A DNA stretch of 64,000 bases, taken from Actinomycetes bacterium. Its GTDB lineage: Bacteria; Actinomycetota; Acidimicrobiia; Acidimicrobiales; Ilumatobacteraceae. Below the pieces are notes generated by a model. It was not told the DNA's origin and made no database searches. It worked only from the letters and a program-made list of their open reading frames with translations. The translations under genes and the position numbers were made by a program. Of the stretch, positions 28,949 through 39,236 are shown piece by piece; position 1 is the stretch's first letter; every line of letters begins with the position of its first letter. The stretch spans positions 1 to 64,000 of the forward strand of contig JAKOUY010000017.1 in NCBI GenBank assembly GCA_029782355.1, written 5' to 3'.

Positions 28949-31915
28949 GTGTCGTACGTGCTTGCCGTCGACCTGGGCACCACCTTCACGGCTGCGGCGA
29001 TCCTGCGCGACGGCGGCCAGCCCAGCGTGGTGACCCTCGAGCACCACGGCACCTCCGTGCCGTCGGTGCTGTGGATCGGCTCGGACGGCTCCACCCTGGT
29101 CGGCACGGCTGCGGCCCGGCGGGCCAGCACCGACGGAGCGCGAGTCGTGCGCGAGTTCAAACGGCGCATCGGCGACACCACCCCGATCCTGGTCGGCGGC
29201 ACGCCGTTCTCCGCCGAGCAGCTCAGCGCTCGACTGTTGCGCTGGGTGTACGACACCGTCACCGCCCAGGAAGGCTCGCCGCCCGTGGGCATGGCGGTCA
29301 CCCACCCGGCCAACTGGGGTCCGTACAAGCTCGAGCTGCTCAACCAGATGCTCCGCCTGGCCGAGGTCGGCCCGACCGTGACGATCACCGAGCCGGAGGC
29401 CGCGGCCATCCAGTACGCCGCTTCCGAGCGCCTGGACGTCGGCCAGGTGGTCACCGTCTACGACCTCGGCGGCGGCACCTTCGACGTGGCCATCCTGCGG
29501 ACCACCGACGGCGGGTTCGACATGCTCGGCGAGCCGGAGGGCGTGGAGCGCCTCGGCGGCATCGACTTCGACGCGGCGATCTACGGCGACGTGGTCGAAC
29601 AGCTCGGCTCGGCGCTCGACGACGTCCCCCCGGACGACCCGGACTGGATCGCCGCCCTCACCCGGCTGCGCGACGAGTGCACGCAGGCCAAAGAGACGCT
29701 GTCCGTGGCGCCCGACGCGGTGATCGAGGTGTGGCTGCCGAACGGCCGCCGCCAGGTCACGGTCAGCGCCGAGCGGTTCTCCGAACTGATCCAGCTGCCC
29801 ATCGTCGAGACCATCAAGGCCGTTCGCCGGGCTCTGCAGGGCGCCCACGTCAACGCCGCCGACGTCAGCCGCCTGCTGCTGGTCGGCGGATCGAGCCGGA
29901 TCCCGTCGATCCGCTCCACGCTGGACGAGGAGCTGGGCATCCCGACTGCGGTCGACACCCACCCGAAGCACGCCGTCGCCCTCGGGGCGGCGCGCTTCGC
30001 CGCCAGCGCGGCCTTCCGCCAGGAATTGCCCACCAGCCGGATCGCCGAGGTCTCGGCGCCGATCGACCAGCGCGCCGACCAGCAGCGCGACGAGGAGCGC
30101 ACCAACCGCCGCGAGGCGATGCGGGCCCTGGCCGGGCAGGTCGGCCAGGTGGCTGCAGCCCACGATCGTGCCGACCTGCAGGCCCGGATGGCCGAGCGGA
30201 TGGACCGCCTGCGGCACCACACGGTGCGCGTCCTCGTCGCCGGCGACTTCAAGCAGGGCAAGAGCACGCTGGTGAACGCCCTGGTCGACCACGAGGTCTG
30301 CCCGGCACACCCCGACTTCGCCACCGCCGTTCCCACCACCATCTCCCACGGCGCCGAGCCCGACGCCAAGATCTACCGCGACCTCGAGCAGGAGGAACCG
30401 TCGGTCGAGCGCATCGAGCTCAGCCAGGTCGGCCGCTTCGTCAGCGAGACCGAGGGAGCCGACCCCGAGCGCGACCGGGTGCGCAGCTGCGAGGTCTCGC
30501 TGCCCGTCGACTGGCTGTCGGCCGGGTTCGAGCTCGTCGACATGCCCGGCTACGGCGGCCTCGACGCCACCGCCGGAGCCCGGATCCTGGCCGAGCTGCG
30601 CAGCGCCCAGGCGGTGCTGTTCGTCTCCGACGCCAGCCAGGAGCTGACCGCCCCGGAGCTCGACTTCCTGCGCCTGGCCACGGAGAACTGCTCCAACGTG
30701 ACCTGCGTACTGTCGAAGATCGACAACTACGTGGACTGGCGCCTGATCCGAGACCTGGACACCCGCCACCTGCAGCGCGCCGGCCTGGACGTGCCGATCG
30801 TGCCGGTGTCGGCGCTGCTGCATCTCACCGCGACGCGCCGGGCACGGGTCGAGTACGACGAGGAGAGCGGCATCGCCGATCTCGTGCGGCTGGTGTCGAC
30901 CAGCATCGCCGACAAGATCGAGCGCGACCAGATCCTGGAGAGCGCCATCGACATCGAGGGCACGCTGAGCCAGCTGCGCGGCGTGCTCCTGGCCGAGACG
31001 GGGGCGCTCGATCCACGACGCCACGCCGAGGTCATGGCGGAGCTGCGCTCGGCGCTGCGCAACGTGGCCGGGCTGCGCCTGGACAGCGCCGGCTGGCACC
31101 GCTTCCTGCGCGACGGCGTCGACGACCTGCGAGTCAGCACGCTGGACGACCTCGAGGCGCAGATGCACGAGCTGACGACCGAGGCCGAGAGCGTGATCGC
31201 AGCCAACGATCCGGCGGTGATCTGGGACGAGTTCCAGACCTGGCTGCGAGCTCGGGCCACCAAGACGGTGAGCGACCTCTACGTCGGGGTGGCCAACGAC
31301 GTCAAGTCGCTGGAGCAGCGCCTGCTCGACCAGCTGGCCCACGCCGAGGACGAGGCCCTGCAGTTCGAGTCCGGGCTGAGCTCGCCGTTCGTCGGTTCGC
31401 TGCGCCTCGACGTGGTCGACGCCAACAACTTCGAGGAGCGAGCCTCGACGGTGGTGATCGAGAGCACCTGGTCCGCGGCCGAGCCGCTGCTGGGCGTCGC
31501 CGGGTTCATCCCCGGGCTGGGCCCGGTCAGCCTGGCGGTGGCCGCCGTGGCCGGGTTGGTGTTCGGTCGCCGGGCGCTGCGCGAGCGCAAGGTCCGGGCC
31601 CTCGAGGGCCGCCGCGACCAGGCTCGCGAGTACCTGCGCGAGTACGTCGAGGAGGTCCAGCGGCTGGTCGTGCGCTCCGTGGAGCGCTACAGCAGCCACC
31701 TGTACCGCGGCATCCGCGACCACGTCTTGTCGCGCACCGACCAGTTGGAGCGATCGATCGAGGACGCCCTGAAGTCGGCCGGCGATGCCGCCGGGCGCTC
31801 CGACGCCGACCGAGCCAACCGCCTCGCCGAGCTGCGCGAGGAGATCGCCCAAACCGACCAGATCAGCGCCGAGCTCACCGGCCTACGCAGCGAGGTGGTC
31901 CCCAGTCATGGCTGA
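28949..31915 (+). CDS. Hsp70 ATPase-dynamin GTPase fusion protein
   Basis: The 988-residue protein joins two nucleotide-binding machines. Residues 1-370 are an Hsp70/actin-fold ATPase with intact phosphate-1 (VDLGTTFTAA), EPEAAAIQYA, phosphate-2 (VYDLGGGTFDVAIL) and adenosine (LLVGGSSRIPSIR) motifs. No Hsp70 substrate-binding domain follows. After a helical linker, residues about 425-988 form a dynamin-like GTPase: P-loop AGDFKQGKSTLVNAL near 438, switch Thr in AVPTTIS, G3 VDMPGYGG, G4 LSKID. Helices and a hydrophobic paddle-like segment (GVAGFIPGLGPVSLAVAAVAGLVFG, about 849-875) follow, suiting membrane insertion, then coiled coil. It overlaps the next gene by 8 nt. I know of no studied protein with this architecture. 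Confidence 0.9.
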   Translation: MSYVLAVDLGTTFTAAAILRDGGQPSVVTLEHHGTSVPSVLWIGSDGSTLVGTAAARRASTDGARVVREFKRRIGDTTPILVGGTPFSAEQLSARLLRWVYDTVTAQEGSPPVGMAVTHPANWGPYKLELLNQMLRLAEVGPTVTITEPEAAAIQYAASERLDVGQVVTVYDLGGGTFDVAILRTTDGGFDMLGEPEGVERLGGIDFDAAIYGDVVEQLGSALDDVPPDDPDWIAALTRLRDECTQAKETLSVAPDAVIEVWLPNGRRQVTVSAERFSELIQLPIVETIKAVRRALQGAHVNAADVSRLLLVGGSSRIPSIRSTLDEELGIPTAVDTHPKHAVALGAARFAASAAFRQELPTSRIAEVSAPIDQRADQQRDEERTNRREAMRALAGQVGQVAAAHDRADLQARMAERMDRLRHHTVRVLVAGDFKQGKSTLVNALVDHEVCPAHPDFATAVPTTISHGAEPDAKIYRDLEQEEPSVERIELSQVGRFVSETEGADPERDRVRSCEVSLPVDWLSAGFELVDMPGYGGLDATAGARILAELRSAQAVLFVSDASQELTAPELDFLRLATENCSNVTCVLSKIDNYVDWRLIRDLDTRHLQRAGLDVPIVPVSALLHLTATRRARVEYDEESGIADLVRLVSTSIADKIERDQILESAIDIEGTLSQLRGVLLAETGALDPRRHAEVMAELRSALRNVAGLRLDSAGWHRFLRDGVDDLRVSTLDDLEAQMHELTTEAESVIAANDPAVIWDEFQTWLRARATKTVSDLYVGVANDVKSLEQRLLDQLAHAEDEALQFESGLSSPFVGSLRLDVVDANNFEERASTVVIESTWSAAEPLLGVAGFIPGLGPVSLAVAAVAGLVFGRRALRERKVRALEGRRDQAREYLREYVEEVQRLVVRSVERYSSHLYRGIRDHVLSRTDQLERSIEDALKSAGDAAGRSDADRANRLAELREEIAQTDQISAELTGLRSEVVPSHG

Positions 31916-34859
31916 CCCGGCCAACGTCGAGCTGAAGATCGATGGCCTGAGCCAGGCCCGGCTGGTTCGCCGCGGCGACCAGACCGAGCTGTATCAAGCG
32001 GTGCAGAAGCAGTTCGGCCGGCGGGTGGCGGTGAAGGTGTACACCACCGACGGCATGCGCGACACCGCACTGGCCCGCTTCGAGCGTGAGTGCCAGCTGA
32101 TGGGCGAGCTCTCCAGCCACCCCAACGTGGTCACCTACTTCGGTTCGGGCGTCCGCAAGCGTCGCCCGTACGTGGTCAGCGAGTGGCTCGAGGAGGGCAC
32201 CTACTCCTCGATCCTCAAGCGCGGCATGCGCCTCGACTGGATGGAGGCGGCCAACGTCGGGATCAAGGTCTGCGGGGCGCTCGAGTCTGCCCACCGCATG
32301 GGCCTGGTGCATCGCAAGCTGAAGCCGGAGGACCTGTTCGTCAGCGCCTTCGGCGAGCCACTGGTGGGGGACTTCCAGCTCGACCCGGGCGAGGGGTCGC
32401 GCAGCGGCGACATGTTCGACATCATGGTCCACGCCGCGCCGGAGCTGTTCCGCGGCGGCGAGGCCACCCCGGCCGTCGACGTCTACGCCCTGTCGTCGGT
32501 GTTGTTCACCCTGATCCTCGGCCGCCCGCCGTTCCTGGTGGAGGCCGACGAGCCGCTGGTGCGGATCAAGGGCCGAGCGCTGGCCAGCCCGCCGCCCGAC
32601 CTGCGCGCTCTCGGCGTGCCCGACCCGCTGTTCGCCGTGCTGTGGTGGGGTGTGCTGCCCCACCCCGACCAGCGCCCGCAGAGCGCCCAGATCTTCGGGC
32701 GGGCGCTGCAGGCCGCGCTGTCGGCCGCCGGCCGTGGACCGGCGCGCATGCTGGTCCGCCCGACGACCGACGCCGATCGGGCCCTGCCCGAGCCGACCCT
32801 GCCGGCCGTGGCGCTCTCGCTGCTGCTCGGGGCGACCGACTTCACCCCGGCGCCGGAGACCGCCGCAGCACCCAAGCCGGCACCGGCACCGTTGGCCCCA
32901 CCCGTGGCCCCGCCCGCCGCGCCGGCCCCACCGGCGGCCACCGGCCTTCCCGAGCCGGCGCTGCCAGAGCCGGCGCTGCCAGAACCGGTGCTGCCCGAAC
33001 CGATGTCGCCTGCCCCGCCGCCGCTGGCAGCCGAGCCGGTGACCGCCCAGCCCGCGCCAGCCGCGCCGGCCACGACCGAGCCGGCCACGACCGAGCCGGC
33101 GGCGACCAAGCCGGCCGCGGTGCCCCCGCCAGCGCCGCCGGCACCCGCCGCCGAGCCGGCGGCGACCGAGCCCGCCGGCGCCCCGGTACCGCCGCCGGCG
33201 GTCGCCCCTGTGCCCGCCGGGCCGGCCTTCGCCCCACCGTCGATGCCGACCCCACCGCCCGCCGCCCCGGCTCCGTCGGTGCCGGCAGAACCGGTCCCGA
33301 TGCCGATCCCCGAGCCGGTCGAACCCGTGGCCCCGGCTGCCGCCGTGGCCGCCGGCGCAGCGGCCGCCCTGGCGCCCACGGCCGTGGTCGAGGACGTCCG
33401 CTCGCTGCTGCGCCTGGCGCGCACCTTGTACACCGACCCACTCGATCGGCACCACATCGACGACCTCGAGGCTCGCCTCGACGAGCCGCTGCGCGTCGCC
33501 ATCGCCGGCAAGGTCAAGGCCGGCAAGAGCACGCTGCTGAACGGGCTGATCGGCGAGGAGCTGGCCCCCACCGACGCCAGCGAGTGCACCAAGATCGTCA
33601 CCTGGTACATCGACGGGGCCACCTACAAGGCCACGCTCAAGCTCAACGACGGCCGTGAGGTGGTCACCCCGTTCAGCCGGCAGTCCGGGGCCATCGACGT
33701 CGACCTGCAGGGCCATCCGGCCGAGCGGGTCGAGAACATCGTCGTCGAGTGGCCGTCCTCGGCGCTCACCGAGCTGTCGCTCATCGACACGCCGGGCATC
33801 GCCTCGATCTCGGCCGACCTGTCGGCGCGCACCCATCGCTTCGTGCTCGCCGAGTCGAGCCACGAGAGCCACGCCGACGCCGTCGTCTACCTGATGCGCC
33901 ACCTCCACCCGACCGACATCCGCTTCCTGGAGGCGTTCCAGGACACCCAGGTCGGGCGGACCAACCCGATCAACGCCATCGGGGTGCTGTCCCGAGCCGA
34001 CGAGCTGGCCGGCAGCCAGTCCGACGCTCTGCGCAGCGCGGCGCAGGTGGCCGCCCGATACCGCAGCTCGCCGCAGGTCCGCCGGTTGTGCCAGACGGTC
34101 GTCCCGGTTGCCGGCCTCCTGGCCCAGGCCGCGGCGAACATCCGCCAGTCGGAGTACAACCTGCTGGCTCGCATCGGCACGCTGTCCGACGAGCAGCTCG
34201 ACCTGCTGCTCGCCTCGGCCGATCGCTTCGTCGACCAGGACCTGGTGGCCAACGTGGTCCCCGCCGATCGCGAAGCGCTGATCCGCAAGCTCGGTCTGTT
34301 CGGCGTGCGCCAGTCGGTCCAGGCCATCCGCCAGCACCTGGTCGACGACGCCGCCTCGCTCGGTCAGTACCTGTTCGAGCAGAGCGGGCTCAGCGAGCTG
34401 CGCCGCATCCTGATGAGTCAGTTCGCCTCACGGCGTGACGTGCTGAAGGCCCAGGCGGCCATGCAGGCCCTCGCCGTGCGGCTGCGGGTCAGTCCGCCGC
34501 CCACCGGCGCCGAGCAGCTGCAGTTCGAGCTGGAGAAGCTGCGCAGCACCGCCCACGTGTTCTCCGAGATCCAGCTGTTCGCAGCCATCCGCGCCGGCGC
34601 CGTCCCGTTCTCGGCCACCGAGGTCGACGGCGTCGAGCGACTGTTGGGCGCCGAGGGATACGCCCCGAGCGTTCGCCTCGGCCTGGCCGATTCGGCGACC
34701 GCCGACGAGATCCGCACGGTGCTGAACGAGCGCATCGCCACCTGGCGGGCCCGGGCGGAGAACCCGCTGAGCACTCGCGAGCTGTCCGACGCCGCCCAGG
34801 TGCTGGTGCGCACCTGCGAGGGCATGCTGCGGGCGATGCACGTCGACGCCGCGGCCTGA
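31908..34859 (+). CDS. Pseudokinase-dynamin GTPase fusion protein
   Basis: The 983-residue protein starts with a Ser/Thr-kinase-like domain (about 1-285). The ATP-anchoring Lys (K43, RRVAVKVY) and the DFG Asp (D155, as DFQ) remain, but the catalytic HRD Asp is Lys (HRK, residues 135-137), the catalytic-loop Asn is Asp142, and the glycine-rich loop is poorly formed. It is therefore probably a pseudokinase. A 180-residue Ala/Pro/Glu-rich linker with LPEPA and ATTEP repeats follows. A dynamin-like GTPase fills about 495-983: GKVKAGKSTLLNG near 539, TKIVTWY, LIDTPG, and a G4 variant LSRAD. No strong membrane paddle is seen, unlike the partner. The start ATG lies inside the end of the Hsp70-dynamin gene, indicating stoichiometric synthesis. 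Confidence 0.9.
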   Translation: MADPANVELKIDGLSQARLVRRGDQTELYQAVQKQFGRRVAVKVYTTDGMRDTALARFERECQLMGELSSHPNVVTYFGSGVRKRRPYVVSEWLEEGTYSSILKRGMRLDWMEAANVGIKVCGALESAHRMGLVHRKLKPEDLFVSAFGEPLVGDFQLDPGEGSRSGDMFDIMVHAAPELFRGGEATPAVDVYALSSVLFTLILGRPPFLVEADEPLVRIKGRALASPPPDLRALGVPDPLFAVLWWGVLPHPDQRPQSAQIFGRALQAALSAAGRGPARMLVRPTTDADRALPEPTLPAVALSLLLGATDFTPAPETAAAPKPAPAPLAPPVAPPAAPAPPAATGLPEPALPEPALPEPVLPEPMSPAPPPLAAEPVTAQPAPAAPATTEPATTEPAATKPAAVPPPAPPAPAAEPAATEPAGAPVPPPAVAPVPAGPAFAPPSMPTPPPAAPAPSVPAEPVPMPIPEPVEPVAPAAAVAAGAAAALAPTAVVEDVRSLLRLARTLYTDPLDRHHIDDLEARLDEPLRVAIAGKVKAGKSTLLNGLIGEELAPTDASECTKIVTWYIDGATYKATLKLNDGREVVTPFSRQSGAIDVDLQGHPAERVENIVVEWPSSALTELSLIDTPGIASISADLSARTHRFVLAESSHESHADAVVYLMRHLHPTDIRFLEAFQDTQVGRTNPINAIGVLSRADELAGSQSDALRSAAQVAARYRSSPQVRRLCQTVVPVAGLLAQAAANIRQSEYNLLARIGTLSDEQLDLLLASADRFVDQDLVANVVPADREALIRKLGLFGVRQSVQAIRQHLVDDAASLGQYLFEQSGLSELRRILMSQFASRRDVLKAQAAMQALAVRLRVSPPPTGAEQLQFELEKLRSTAHVFSEIQLFAAIRAGAVPFSATEVDGVERLLGAEGYAPSVRLGLADSATADEIRTVLNERIATWRARAENPLSTRELSDAAQVLVRTCEGMLRAMHVDAAA

Positions 34860-35409: not shown

Positions 35410-36392
35410 CCGCCGCGCAGTCCGCTGGCGGTGACCCAGCCGTGCCAGCCGTCGGCCGTGCGGACGTGCGACCAACCGGGCAGGGACTCGACCACGGCCA
35501 CCTGATCACCACGGCGCAGGACACGGGTCGGCGTGTCCCCGGCGGGCAGGACGAACCCGGGCAGCTCGTCGATCGTCACCTCGTGGGTCGCCTCGCTCCA
35601 CCGCGGCGGGGCCGGCGCAGCAAACGCCGGTGCGGGCCCAGCCGGCGGGGCGGGGGCCGGGGGTGGGGCGGGGGCCGGGGGTGGGGCGGGGGCCGGGGGT
35701 CGGGCGGTCGCCGACGGTGCGCTCGGGGCCGGCGGCGCTGCAGCCGGCGCCGGCGGTGCCGCCGGGGCTTGCGACGCCGGCGGGCGGGCCGGTGCCTCGG
35801 CGGCCGGATCGAGGTACCCGCCGAGGACGTTGAGCACGAAGTCGTCGTCGTCGTCGCTCATGCCCAACGCCACGGCAGCCAAGTAGTCCTCGGCCTCCAG
35901 ACTGACCACCTCGCTCGGCGCGGTGGTGGTCACGTTGACGTCGTAGGGCGTGCGCCGGAGGATGTTGTCGGCGCCGAACGACGCGCCCGCCTTGGCGGTG
36001 GTGGCTCCCTGCGGCCCGCTGACCTCCGCCGCTCCGCTCTTCAGCAGCACGAAGTGGGTGGGCAGCTCACCGGCCTCGACGATCACCGTGCCCGGCCCGA
36101 CCTTCCGGGTGCGGACGTACTGGGTGAGGTCGCGGGCCATGTTCGGATCGAGCCCGGGGAAGGTCTTGGCGACGTGCGAGCCCGACTCGGCCCACAGCAC
36201 CTCGCTGGGGGTCAGCGGCTCGTTGGCCGGCCACCGCTGGTCGACCAGCTTGCCGCCGATCTGCGACCCGGCGAGCAGCACCAGCAGGAGCACGGCCCCG
36301 ACCACGAGAACCGCCAGGAGGATGGCCAGCGGCGTCGGCCCGACACCGATCGGACCGAGATCGAACCCGGCGACGACTGATCCATGCCCCAC
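35406..36392 (-). CDS. Membrane protein with cNMP-binding and SH3 domains
   Basis: The 328-residue protein has one N-terminal membrane helix (about 18-42, PLAILLAVLVVGAVLLLVLLAG), a cyclic-nucleotide-binding-like domain (about 85-175: VGPGTVIVEAGELPTHFVLLKSGAAEVS, ASFGADNILRRTPYDV), a Pro/Ala-rich spacer of 70 residues, and a C-terminal SH3 domain (RVLRRGDQVAVVESLPGWSHVRTADGWHGWVTASGL). The phosphate-binding cassette lacks an evident Arg-Ala core, so cNMP binding is uncertain. SH3b domains often bind cell-wall peptides or mediate protein contacts. The GTG start at 36392 faces the divergent cytochrome gene across 66 bp. Its role is unknown; being coupled to a flavin reductase suggests redox sensing. 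Confidence 0.78.
   Translation of the reverse strand: MGHGSVVAGFDLGPIGVGPTPLAILLAVLVVGAVLLLVLLAGSQIGGKLVDQRWPANEPLTPSEVLWAESGSHVAKTFPGLDPNMARDLTQYVRTRKVGPGTVIVEAGELPTHFVLLKSGAAEVSGPQGATTAKAGASFGADNILRRTPYDVNVTTTAPSEVVSLEAEDYLAAVALGMSDDDDDFVLNVLGGYLDPAAEAPARPPASQAPAAPPAPAAAPPAPSAPSATARPPAPAPPPAPAPPPAPAPPAGPAPAFAAPAPPRWSEATHEVTIDELPGFVLPAGDTPTRVLRRGDQVAVVESLPGWSHVRTADGWHGWVTASGLRGG
35651..35704. repeat. Three 18-bp G-rich tandem repeats
   Basis: Three adjacent copies of an 18-bp unit (CGGGGGCCGGGGGTGGGG; the third differs near its end) encode Pro-Ala repeats of the spacer of the cNMP/SH3 protein on the minus strand. The plus strand has many runs of four or five G and could form a G-quadruplex. 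Copy number may vary between strains. Confidence 0.75.
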
Positions 36393-36458
36393 GGCGGCGA
36401 TGGTAGCGTGCCGACGGCAAGGGGGTCGTCGTGTCCGAGGCAAGGGGTTGCTGAACGC

Positions 36459-39236
36459 GTGAAGATCAAATCGCGGGCCTGGAACCTGATCGTCATCATC
36501 GGCTCGATCGCCCTGCTGGCCGTCGGCTTCGGCGGGCTCTTCCTCCTGCAGAGCGCCTCGGCCAGCGCCACGCTCACCTCCTGGTTCATCATCGTCCTCG
36601 GCATCCTGACGTTCCTGTTCTTCGCCGGCCCGGGCATCGCCTTCGCCGCTCGCAAGCGGATCCCGTGGCTCAAGGCCAAGCTGCCGGGCGGCACGCTGGC
36701 CTGGGTACGCGCCCACCTCTACCTGCCGATCCTGGCGCTGGTGGCGGCCTACGTGCACGCCACGTCGGCGCCGTTCCGGGCCACGCTCTCGTCGGGCAAG
36801 GTGCTGCTGGGCATCGCCATCGTCGTCTCCCTGGCCGGCGTCGCCCGCCATCACCTGATCGGGGTCACCAAGGCGGCGGTCAACGCCGACGCCCAGATCA
36901 GCCGGATCGCCGCCGGCCAGTCGCGCGCCTTCCGCCAGCTGGTGATCGACTACAAGCAGCTGCGCCGGCCCCTGGCCGACATCCAGGCCGACGTCAACCT
37001 GCTCAACGACGGCGAGCGGGCGGCGTGGAACAAGGTGGTCGAGGTCCAGCAGGCCATCGATCACGACTTCCCCCGGGGCGGTGGCCAGTCGCGCAACGTC
37101 CGCGCCCTCAAGCTGCTGCGCGCCGTGCACGCCCCGCTGACCATCGTGCTGTTCGCCACGCTCGGCTTCCACATCGCCGACGTGCTGGGCGTGGCCAACA
37201 ACGTCGTGCGCAACAAGGTCGAGTCGATCGCCTCCAACGCCGACTGCGCCGGCTGCCATCGCGACATCGTCAAGGACTTCGAGCACTCGACCATGGACCA
37301 TGGCCAGACCGGCACGATCATGCAGGCCCAGCTGCCGGTGACCCTGGCCAAGAACGAGCTGCTCGCCAAGCAGCTCGGCAGTGCCCAGCAGACGCTGCTC
37401 GACGCCGCTGCCAAGGTGTGCATCAACTGCCACCTGCCCATCGCCGCCGGGTTGGCCAAGGACAACACCGCCGTCCTGCCGGTGAACCAGGGCACCGACA
37501 CCAAGGGCGCCGCCGTGGCCGACGGCAGCCTGGCGGTGACCCGCGACGGCATCAGCTGCACGTTCTGCCACACCCTGTCGCGCCCGCCCGGTGAGCTGGC
37601 CGGCGCCGGCGGCATCCCGGTGGACGGCGGGACCCCCAACCACTTCACGACGATGTACGGGCCGCTGTTCCGGGATCCCAACCCGCTGCCGGTGCGCGTC
37701 CACGACATCGGCCAGGGCGAGCAGACCGACCTCGGCCAGTTCTGGAACGACCCGGTGGCCACCTCGCTGGCCTGCGGGGCATGCCACAACGTCAAGCTCG
37801 ACCTCAACGGCAACGGCCTGTCACCCTTCAACGAGAACGACACCGCCGACGCCAACGGCAACCGGCAGATGAACGGCAACGAGCTCGACGTCGTCAACGG
37901 CAAGGTCCAGGACCTGGTCCTGCAGACCACCTTCGACGAGTGGCAGGACTACGTCCACTTCTACGACCAGGCGATTGCCCCGAAGACCACGGTGAACCAC
38001 CCGCTCGGCTGCATCGAGTGCCACATGCCGAGCCTGCCCGACGGTGCCCAGAAGCCGGTCGTCGACAAGGCCCCCGGCCTGCTGACGACGCCGGACCGCC
38101 CGTTCCGCAAGCACAGCTTCGTCGGCGTCGAGTACGACCTCGACCCGTCGGTGTACACCGACGACGGCTTGCCGGCCAGCACGGTCAACGAGATCCTCAC
38201 CGAGCGGGCCGCGCTGCTGAAGTCGGCCGTCACCCTCGAGGTGCAGAACCCGGTGGCCTCCGCCGATGGCACGGGCGAGACGGCCAACGTCGTGATCACC
38301 AACAACCTGATGGGTCACACCTTCCCCACCGGGTTCGCCTTCGCCCGCCAGTTCTGGCTGGAGGTCCACGCCATCGGTGCCGACGGCAAGGAGGTCTGCC
38401 TGGTCAACCCGTTCGCCGCCCAGGGCGTCCAGGGGCCGTGCGGATCCGGGGTGCTGAAGGGTCGTGGCGGGCGGGTGCCGCAGTGCGATCCGGCCAGCGT
38501 GGCGGCCACGGTGGGAGCGGCCAGTCCGCTCGCCGCGGCCAACGCCAACATCCGGTTCGCCGACGCCGCACCGGTCGGCGAATGCGACCCGTGGCTCGCC
38601 AACTTCCAGAAGATCCTGACCGACGGTGACCCCGGTGGCAGCGGGGCCTTCACCGAAGTCGCCTACCAGAGCTTCCTGCCGGACATCGTCAAGGTCCGCA
38701 CCCGAGTGATCGACGGGTTGAAGATGGCCCCGCTGCAGTCGGTGCGTCTGGTCCCCGACGCCAGCGGGGCACTGCAGGACGCCACGTCGATGACCATCCC
38801 GTACACCTTCCAGGCCGCCCCGGGAACCCCGCTGACGATCACCGCCACGCTGCGCTTCCGCCATCTCCCGCCCGAGTTCATCCGCGGTCTGGCGAAGGAG
38901 CAGCAGAGCCTGAGCAACGTCACCGCCTCGGCACGGATCGACGACCCGGAGGCACTGGTCAAGAACCTGGTCGTCACCGACGTGGTCAGCGCAACCTCCG
39001 GCCAAGGTGCGGTGCTGGCCTGCAAGGGCCCGCAGAACGCCGACGGCGCCACGATCCTGTCCTGCGAGCAGCCGGTCACGGGAGACGGGGCCGTGGATGC
39101 CAGTGGCGTCGACCCGCACGCCCGGCTGGCCACCGGGACCGCCCATCCGGTCGCCACCGCCTCCGTGGTCGGGGGGTTCACGCTGCTCGGCGGGTTGGTC
39201 GTCGCCGGGCGGCGGCCCCGTCGCCGCTCGAACTGA
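36459..39236 (+). CDS. Membrane-anchored pentaheme cytochrome c with heme-b-like N-terminal domain
   Basis: The 925-residue protein has five CxxCH heme-c sites (CAGCH, CINCH, CTFCH, CGACH, CIECH, residues about 262-520). The N-terminal 250 residues contain five hydrophobic helices with paired histidines (HLYLPILALVAAYVHA, GVARHHLIGV, AVHAPLTIVLFATLGFH), which could hold b hemes and pass electrons across the membrane. A beta-rich region with extra cysteines (about 600-880) and a C-terminal membrane anchor followed by RRPRRRSN close the protein. The GTG start gives MKIKSRAWN before the first helix. It heads a cluster with ccmF, ccmH and ccmG, so heme c attachment is local. The electron donor and acceptor are unknown; c554-like or tetrathionate/nitrite-type multiheme proteins are the nearest analogies. 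Confidence 0.88.
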   Translation: MKIKSRAWNLIVIIGSIALLAVGFGGLFLLQSASASATLTSWFIIVLGILTFLFFAGPGIAFAARKRIPWLKAKLPGGTLAWVRAHLYLPILALVAAYVHATSAPFRATLSSGKVLLGIAIVVSLAGVARHHLIGVTKAAVNADAQISRIAAGQSRAFRQLVIDYKQLRRPLADIQADVNLLNDGERAAWNKVVEVQQAIDHDFPRGGGQSRNVRALKLLRAVHAPLTIVLFATLGFHIADVLGVANNVVRNKVESIASNADCAGCHRDIVKDFEHSTMDHGQTGTIMQAQLPVTLAKNELLAKQLGSAQQTLLDAAAKVCINCHLPIAAGLAKDNTAVLPVNQGTDTKGAAVADGSLAVTRDGISCTFCHTLSRPPGELAGAGGIPVDGGTPNHFTTMYGPLFRDPNPLPVRVHDIGQGEQTDLGQFWNDPVATSLACGACHNVKLDLNGNGLSPFNENDTADANGNRQMNGNELDVVNGKVQDLVLQTTFDEWQDYVHFYDQAIAPKTTVNHPLGCIECHMPSLPDGAQKPVVDKAPGLLTTPDRPFRKHSFVGVEYDLDPSVYTDDGLPASTVNEILTERAALLKSAVTLEVQNPVASADGTGETANVVITNNLMGHTFPTGFAFARQFWLEVHAIGADGKEVCLVNPFAAQGVQGPCGSGVLKGRGGRVPQCDPASVAATVGAASPLAAANANIRFADAAPVGECDPWLANFQKILTDGDPGGSGAFTEVAYQSFLPDIVKVRTRVIDGLKMAPLQSVRLVPDASGALQDATSMTIPYTFQAAPGTPLTITATLRFRHLPPEFIRGLAKEQQSLSNVTASARIDDPEALVKNLVVTDVVSATSGQGAVLACKGPQNADGATILSCEQPVTGDGAVDASGVDPHARLATGTAHPVATASVVGGFTLLGGLVVAGRRPRRRSN

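Follow-up and report, generated by a model that had tools for sequence, protein, structure and literature searches.

An Hsp70 ATPase domain fused to an IniA-type dynamin beside a pseudokinase–IniC fusion, and recurrent Hsp70-like genes at ini-type loci of Actinomycetota

In a 64,000-nucleotide stretch of an Ilumatobacteraceae genome (contig JAKOUY010000017.1; hereafter the window), we identify two overlapping genes encoding an adjacent pair of dynamins related to IniA and IniC, the drug-induced membrane dynamins of mycobacteria, with an Hsp70 ATPase domain fused to the IniA-type protein and a pseudokinase fused to the IniC-type protein (Table 1). The Hsp70 link recurs in ini-type loci of Actinomycetota, where the Hsp70-like protein is usually separate and anchored in the membrane, a connection that an earlier note on this DNA had missed. 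We lean slightly towards reading the pair as an ATP-timed machine for membrane fission or repair; in this reading IniA has gained, by fusion, the Hsp70-like ATPase encoded near most of the sampled dynamin pairs of actinobacteria, and IniC has gained a pseudokinase. The main value of the finding is as a pointer to an Hsp70–dynamin partnership across Actinomycetota that seems to be unstudied.

Table 1. Features of the fused gene pair, in window coordinates
Feature	Coordinates	Strand	Support
Gene 1, Hsp70-NBD / IniA-type dynamin fusion, 988 aa	28949..31915	+	
Hsp70 (DnaK-like) NBD, residues 1-355	28949..30013	+	Pfam HSP70, model match
Connector, NBD to dynamin; without transmembrane segment; mainly helical in model	30014..30127	+	
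IniA-type bacterial dynamin-like protein	30128..31912	+	PDB 6j72, Foldseek
GTPase G1/P-loop, GDFKQGKS	30242..30265	+	
IniA-type hydrophobic paddle, AEPLLGVAGFIPGLGPVSLAVAAVAGLVFG region	31484..31576	+	
8-nt gene overlap, ATGGCTGA	31908..31915	+	
Gene 2, pseudokinase / IniC-type dynamin fusion, 983 aa	31908..34859	+	
Protein-kinase fold by sequence (PknA/PknB-like), catalytically degenerate	31908..32762	+	Pfam, PDB 6b2q
Catalytic loop HRKLKPED (HRD Asp to Lys; Asn to Asp)	32310..32333	+	
DFQ replacing DFG	32370..32378	+	
Pro/Ala-rich linker, ~200 aa, mostly pLDDT <50	32763..33389	+	
IniC-type dynamin, without paddle	33390..34856	+	
C-terminal IniC module, also on an intact kinase of a related genome (L125:15074-16732)	34530..34856	+	

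Gene 1 couples a complete Hsp70 nucleotide-binding domain (NBD) to a full-length IniA-type dynamin. Residues 5–352 match Pfam HSP70 (E 6.9e-46), and the protein has no substrate-binding domain, since the match ends at profile position 373 of 599 and residues 395–988 are dynamin; the LLLDV interdomain linker of Hsp70 chaperones was not found in the connector. The NBD has the actin fold and the ATPase motifs DLGTTFT, DLGGGTFD and VGGSSRIP, and DLGTTFT, DLGGGTFD and VGGSSR are unchanged across all four fused proteins recovered. An AlphaFold2 model (mean pLDDT 86) contains two folded modules, whose relative placement is not to be read at a pTM of 0.62, and its NBD superposes on Hsp70 NBDs with Z ~40 and an rmsd of 2.3–2.7 over ~348 residues. 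The remainder matches Pfam Dynamin_N (3.2e-18) and, over residues 397–965, its closest solved relative, Mycobacterium smegmatis IniA (PDB 6j72, 4.8e-57); the isolated 595-aa dynamin part returns the same structure at 2.3e-57 over its residues 5–572, a similarity that spans both GTPase domain and stalk. Foldseek likewise places IniA in the top three positions for the dynamin model, 6j72 being the best (E 3.2e-30, TMt 0.83). Motifs G1, G3 and G4 are present, with GTP hydrolysis and tubule cutting as predicted activities, and a hydrophobic stretch at the stalk tip (hydropathy 1.97 at about residues 854–872) aligns with the paddle of unfused IniA proteins.

Gene 2 joins a degenerate kinase to an IniC-type dynamin, with Pfam matches to Pkinase (1.3e-25) and Dynamin_N (2.5e-10). 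By sequence, the kinase fold is closest among solved structures to PknA and PknB (PknA 6b2q, 6.4e-24), but the HRD Asp, the catalytic-loop Asn and the DFG Gly are replaced and the glycine loop is lost, making it a pseudokinase; the VAVK lysine (Lys43) and the αC glutamate are retained. HRK, KPED or KPQD, and DFQ stand in for HRD, KPxN and DFG in all four fused proteins, with HRKLKP and the Asp that replaces the loop Asn identical, and none of the four has the residues of an active Ser/Thr kinase. The kinase fold shows a dN/dS of 0.20–0.25 between the window and two relatives, resembling the Hsp70 NBD (~0.2–0.24). The conserved substitutions and low dN/dS argue against a decaying domain, and we infer that the fold is probably kept for something other than catalysis. 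In the structure model of gene 2 the kinase domain is poor, and Foldseek matches to the model are mitofusins, IniA and BDLP. IniC searches used the dynamin half of the protein (33390–34856), the linker being of low complexity, and recovered the IniC-type genes of unfused pairs at 40–53% identity for the better matches. The domain calls of the earlier note, which had described an Hsp70 ATPase domain without its substrate-binding domain and a kinase with HRD Asp changed to Lys and loop Asn to Asp, are borne out by Pfam and PDB matches for both genes and by structure matches for gene 1, which also rule out spurious domain matches; both reading frames lie at the coordinates that it gave.

A different kinase–IniC combination occurs in another genome of the family (G624), where L125:15074-16732 (minus strand) encodes an intact kinase with HRD and DFG that carries the IniC C-terminal module but no GTPase domain. 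It adjoins further kinase genes and lies ~5.7 kb from an Hsp70-NBD membrane protein. Kinases and IniC have therefore probably been joined more than once.

Both fusions co-occur in four of 221 family genomes, representing four genera. Outside the window, full-length gene 1 is found in three further genera at 72, 66 and 56% identity, all in metagenome-derived genomes, and wherever it is found a kinase–IniC gene adjoins and overlaps it (4/4), so that the linkage of the two fusions proposed earlier survived a co-occurrence survey. In one of these genomes (G674), gene 2 is interrupted by a contig end past the kinase and is split across contigs C672 and C694. The same two fusions in three other genera exclude chance, and their identical junctions rule out a frameshift or assembly artefact. 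No fused frame was found outside the family among 396 phylum genomes (22 with IniA; judged by open-frame length) or in a sample of 198 class genomes, which rules out a fusion common in the phylum. Two of the fused relatives have neighbours in common with the window (FKBP; also ABC1 or PutA), and the third has other neighbours, with a separate membrane Hsp70 gene next to its pair. That gene (L117:7302-9434, minus strand; equivalent to L137:6481-8613) encodes an Hsp70 NBD with a membrane helix, is divergent and adjoins the fused genes; one genome thus contains both a fused and an unfused form.

We examined unfused loci in an IniA-alignment scan of one genome per species across 84,980 species, which yielded 80 best loci from Pseudonocardia, Lentzea, Actinoplanes, Saccharothrix, Microbacterium, Agromyces, Arthrobacter and many Acidimicrobiia. 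IniC is present in 79 of these 80 loci and an Hsp70-like gene in 58 (fused ones counted). When only loci with 7.5 kb or more on each side are counted (38, two of them fused), 36 have an Hsp70-like gene within 10 kb, against a chance expectation of ~3% estimated from ~6 such genes in the 3.8-Mb window genome. An IniC-type gene also occurs in 17 of the 198 class genomes, and in most of the surroundings fetched from that sample an IniA-type gene lies next to it, accompanied by an Hsp70-like gene if the contig extends far enough. Gene arrangement varies among loci: iniC and hsp70 overlap on one strand in four; in Saccharothrix and Actinophytocola the overlapping genes lie downstream of iniA; iniC, iniA and hsp70 all overlap on one strand at L046; and the linked hsp70 is often on the other strand or 2–6 kb away, with spacing and strand varying by clade.

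The linked Hsp70-like proteins differ from DnaK. A hydropathy scan predicts a transmembrane segment after the ATPase domain in 48 of 52 linked proteins of at least 450 aa, and those sent to Pfam match HSP70 over the NBD only; the C-terminal parts of the unfused proteins differ, with BON or Septum_form matches among them. Four true DnaKs have no such segment after the NBD and all keep the LLLDV linker. In an NBD tree, the four fused NBDs form one clade (100/100) nested within the ini-linked Hsp70s and far from DnaK, showing that the fused NBD has a single origin; the deeper forks are open, so the donor among the linked genes is not fixed. This nesting means that the fusion unites proteins whose genes lie close together in other loci. 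Fusion of genes that neighbour each other elsewhere is classic evidence for direct cooperation, and the conservation of this one speaks for a direct action of the Hsp70-like protein on IniA. A kinase gene near unfused pairs was considered as the source of the pseudokinase, and none was found in the 80 loci except in the fused ones.

Several unfused loci carry an AAA-TPR(MalT)-LuxR gene resembling iniR and a low-complexity IniB-like gene just upstream of iniA. The IniB-like proteins at L035 (10583-12070), L037 (3677-5452), L039 (3521-4255), L053 (1-1299) and L054 (6108-7082) are rich in Gly/Ala, Asp/Lys/Tyr or Pro/Glu, and hold the same position with little sequence conservation. At Mycobacterium-like loci, IniA matches the crystallised M. 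smegmatis protein with 1014 bits and an NBD-like membrane protein is also present. In Mycobacteriaceae-like genomes, two Hsp70-like membrane proteins encoded near iniA/iniC (L132:4969-7377 and L133:13118-14935) have Thr-rich tails and are perhaps pseudo-Hsp70s; in the L132 protein the ATP-site motif DLGGGTFD seems degenerate (LCDFGGSGANI), which would mean that ATP hydrolysis is not essential everywhere.

The 8-nt overlap of the window pair is as the earlier note described it, and the equal synthesis drawn from it does not follow; the overlap suggests translational coupling instead. It is also not special among relatives: in 71 of 77 relatives with both genes on one strand, the IniC frame likewise begins no later than the IniA stop codon, an upper bound because starts were taken from the longest open frame. 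The paddle is confined to the Hsp70–dynamin, as had been noticed, but the same contrast between IniA and IniC holds in the relatives checked. The earlier comparison with paired dynamins and IniA/IniC gains support from the 6j72 match and from adjacent IniC-type genes in relatives. Neighbours of the window pair are PutA, FKBP, ABC1, FMN reductase and cytochrome genes. Beside the pair we saw neither an IniB-like gene, for which low complexity weakens the test, nor an IniR-like regulator, and its own genome gave LuxR C-terminal matches only and no full-length IniR match; the locus thus differs from an iniBAC operon, which has both. Further downstream, the window encodes a 950-aa protein (36384-39236, plus strand) in which CxxCH haem motifs are numerous and for which Pfam gives no match, followed by apparent cytochrome c maturation genes recognised by eye alone.

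Published work gives the pair a functional setting. M. smegmatis IniA cuts membrane tubules in vitro in a GTP-dependent manner, and IniC is unstable after purification and hence was not studied (PMC6715688); the mycobacterial iniR-iniBAC locus is stress-induced, and Boot et al. mention in one sentence a dnaK-like gene beside M. smegmatis iniR (PMC5760070). In the open literature we found no further treatment of this ini-linked gene and nothing specific on an Hsp70 or pseudokinase with bacterial dynamins. By homology to IniA, a role of the window pair at the stressed membrane is plausible (PMC6715688; PMC5760070). The window pair resembles iniBAC in its side-by-side IniA and IniC homologues, its paddle in IniA alone and its unfused relatives with IniR-like and IniB-like genes, and differs in the two fused domains and in the IniB-like neighbour not seen. 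Compared with DnaK, its NBD is complete, with phosphate and adenosine motifs, but has no interdomain linker or substrate-binding domain and groups with ini-linked Hsp70s. Bacterial dynamins commonly occur as pairs (PMC6104087), and Cj-DLP1/2, Streptomyces DynA/DynB and cyanobacterial BDLP1 are likewise side-by-side heterotypic pairs with accessory domains proposed to govern assembly. The protein encoded next to BDLP1 has a DnaJ-like domain for which binding to DnaK has been proposed (PMC6104087), which makes an independent Hsp70–dynamin link. In contrast to IniA, Cj-DLP and BDLP are similar to the window dynamins in the GTPase region only, and no publication that we found describes an Hsp70 ATPase or a pseudokinase attached to Cj-DLP1/2, DynA/DynB or BDLP1.

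In the mechanism that we slightly favour, IniA and IniC would assemble into a heteromer, with the IniA paddle entering the membrane and GTP powering the constriction, cutting or resealing of damaged plasma membrane. Without a substrate domain, the Hsp70 NBD would fold no clients and would be a switch whose ATP cycle times the opening, clustering or disassembly of the dynamin; most simply, ATP binding or hydrolysis by the NBD would set the assembly state of IniA/IniC. The pseudokinase on its long flexible arm may be a docking or sensing module that brings IniC to a site or signal and phosphorylates nothing; the intact kinase with an IniC module at L125 is one hint of such a role. We infer the coupling to ATP, which way the signal travels, the heteromer of the window proteins and the docking role of the pseudokinase. 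In unfused systems, the membrane-anchored Hsp70-like protein would do the same job as a separate partner, probably sitting in the membrane with part on the other side, and the fused NBD, having no membrane helix of its own, would rely on the dynamin paddle for membrane contact. More broadly, and with the balance lying evenly for and against, ini systems may be machines of at least three parts in which a dedicated, usually membrane-anchored Hsp70-like ATPase drives or gates IniA/IniC, the window fusion hard-wiring that contact and adding a pseudokinase arm. The far end of such an ATPase might sense conditions outside the cell. If the three-part reading is true, bacterial dynamins would have a regulator fuelled by ATP, with a loose parallel in Hsc70 around clathrin coats.

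The same domains might serve as docking modules for localisation or oligomerisation only, with ATP turnover irrelevant and the dynamin working as IniA/IniC do alone. The seemingly degenerate ATP site of the linked Mycobacteriaceae protein is in keeping with this, as are the membrane helices and varied C-terminal parts of the unfused Hsp70s, which fit anchoring, and the extra domains of Cj-DLP1/2 and the BDLP1 partner, which are thought to serve assembly (PMC6104087). However, invariant ATPase motifs in all four fused proteins and the low dN/dS of the NBD exceed what a tether needs, and we consider pure docking unlikely. That the Hsp70-like protein and the dynamins instead share only an envelope signal, as an IniR regulon without contact, is conceivable given how far and on which strand the linked hsp70 often lies, and IniR-like regulators do occur in several loci. 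On that account the fusion would be a rare accident of gene order; its retention in four genera argues against an unselected accident, persisting as it does across 56–72% identity and even beside a separate membrane Hsp70 gene, and we regard this explanation as improbable.

The earlier note had also linked such pairs to phage stress and suggested a survey of nearby defence islands. In a defence system of this kind the NBD and pseudokinase would sense infection and the dynamins would damage the membrane. The patchy distribution and PADLOC similarity to LeoA/LeoBC and PD-T4-6 kinases point that way, but these matches are generic, being what any dynamin or kinase gives; the flanks examined hold no defence genes, and several unfused loci carry an iniBAC-type regulator and IniB-like genes. 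We therefore hold an anti-phage or conflict role to be very improbable.

For the ATP-timed reading, gene 1 offers a covalently joined protein in which to study the effect of ATP on fission. The linkage further indicates a large group of Hsp70-like proteins that lack substrate domains, are in most cases anchored in the membrane, and would here gain a known partner. The window genome (G000) encodes four more Hsp70-NBD proteins, at C4:17425, C35:255641 and C7:494899 with a neighbour (L048, L049, L051), each with one predicted membrane helix; none adjoins a dynamin and two are in tandem. Typical actinobacterial IniA/IniC loci also occur under other phylum labels, at L157 (QEUP01000017.1, 'Acidobacteria bacterium ATN2') and L180 (PKRH01000003.1, 'Thermoanaerobacterales'), reflecting either mislabelled or contaminated bins or transfer.
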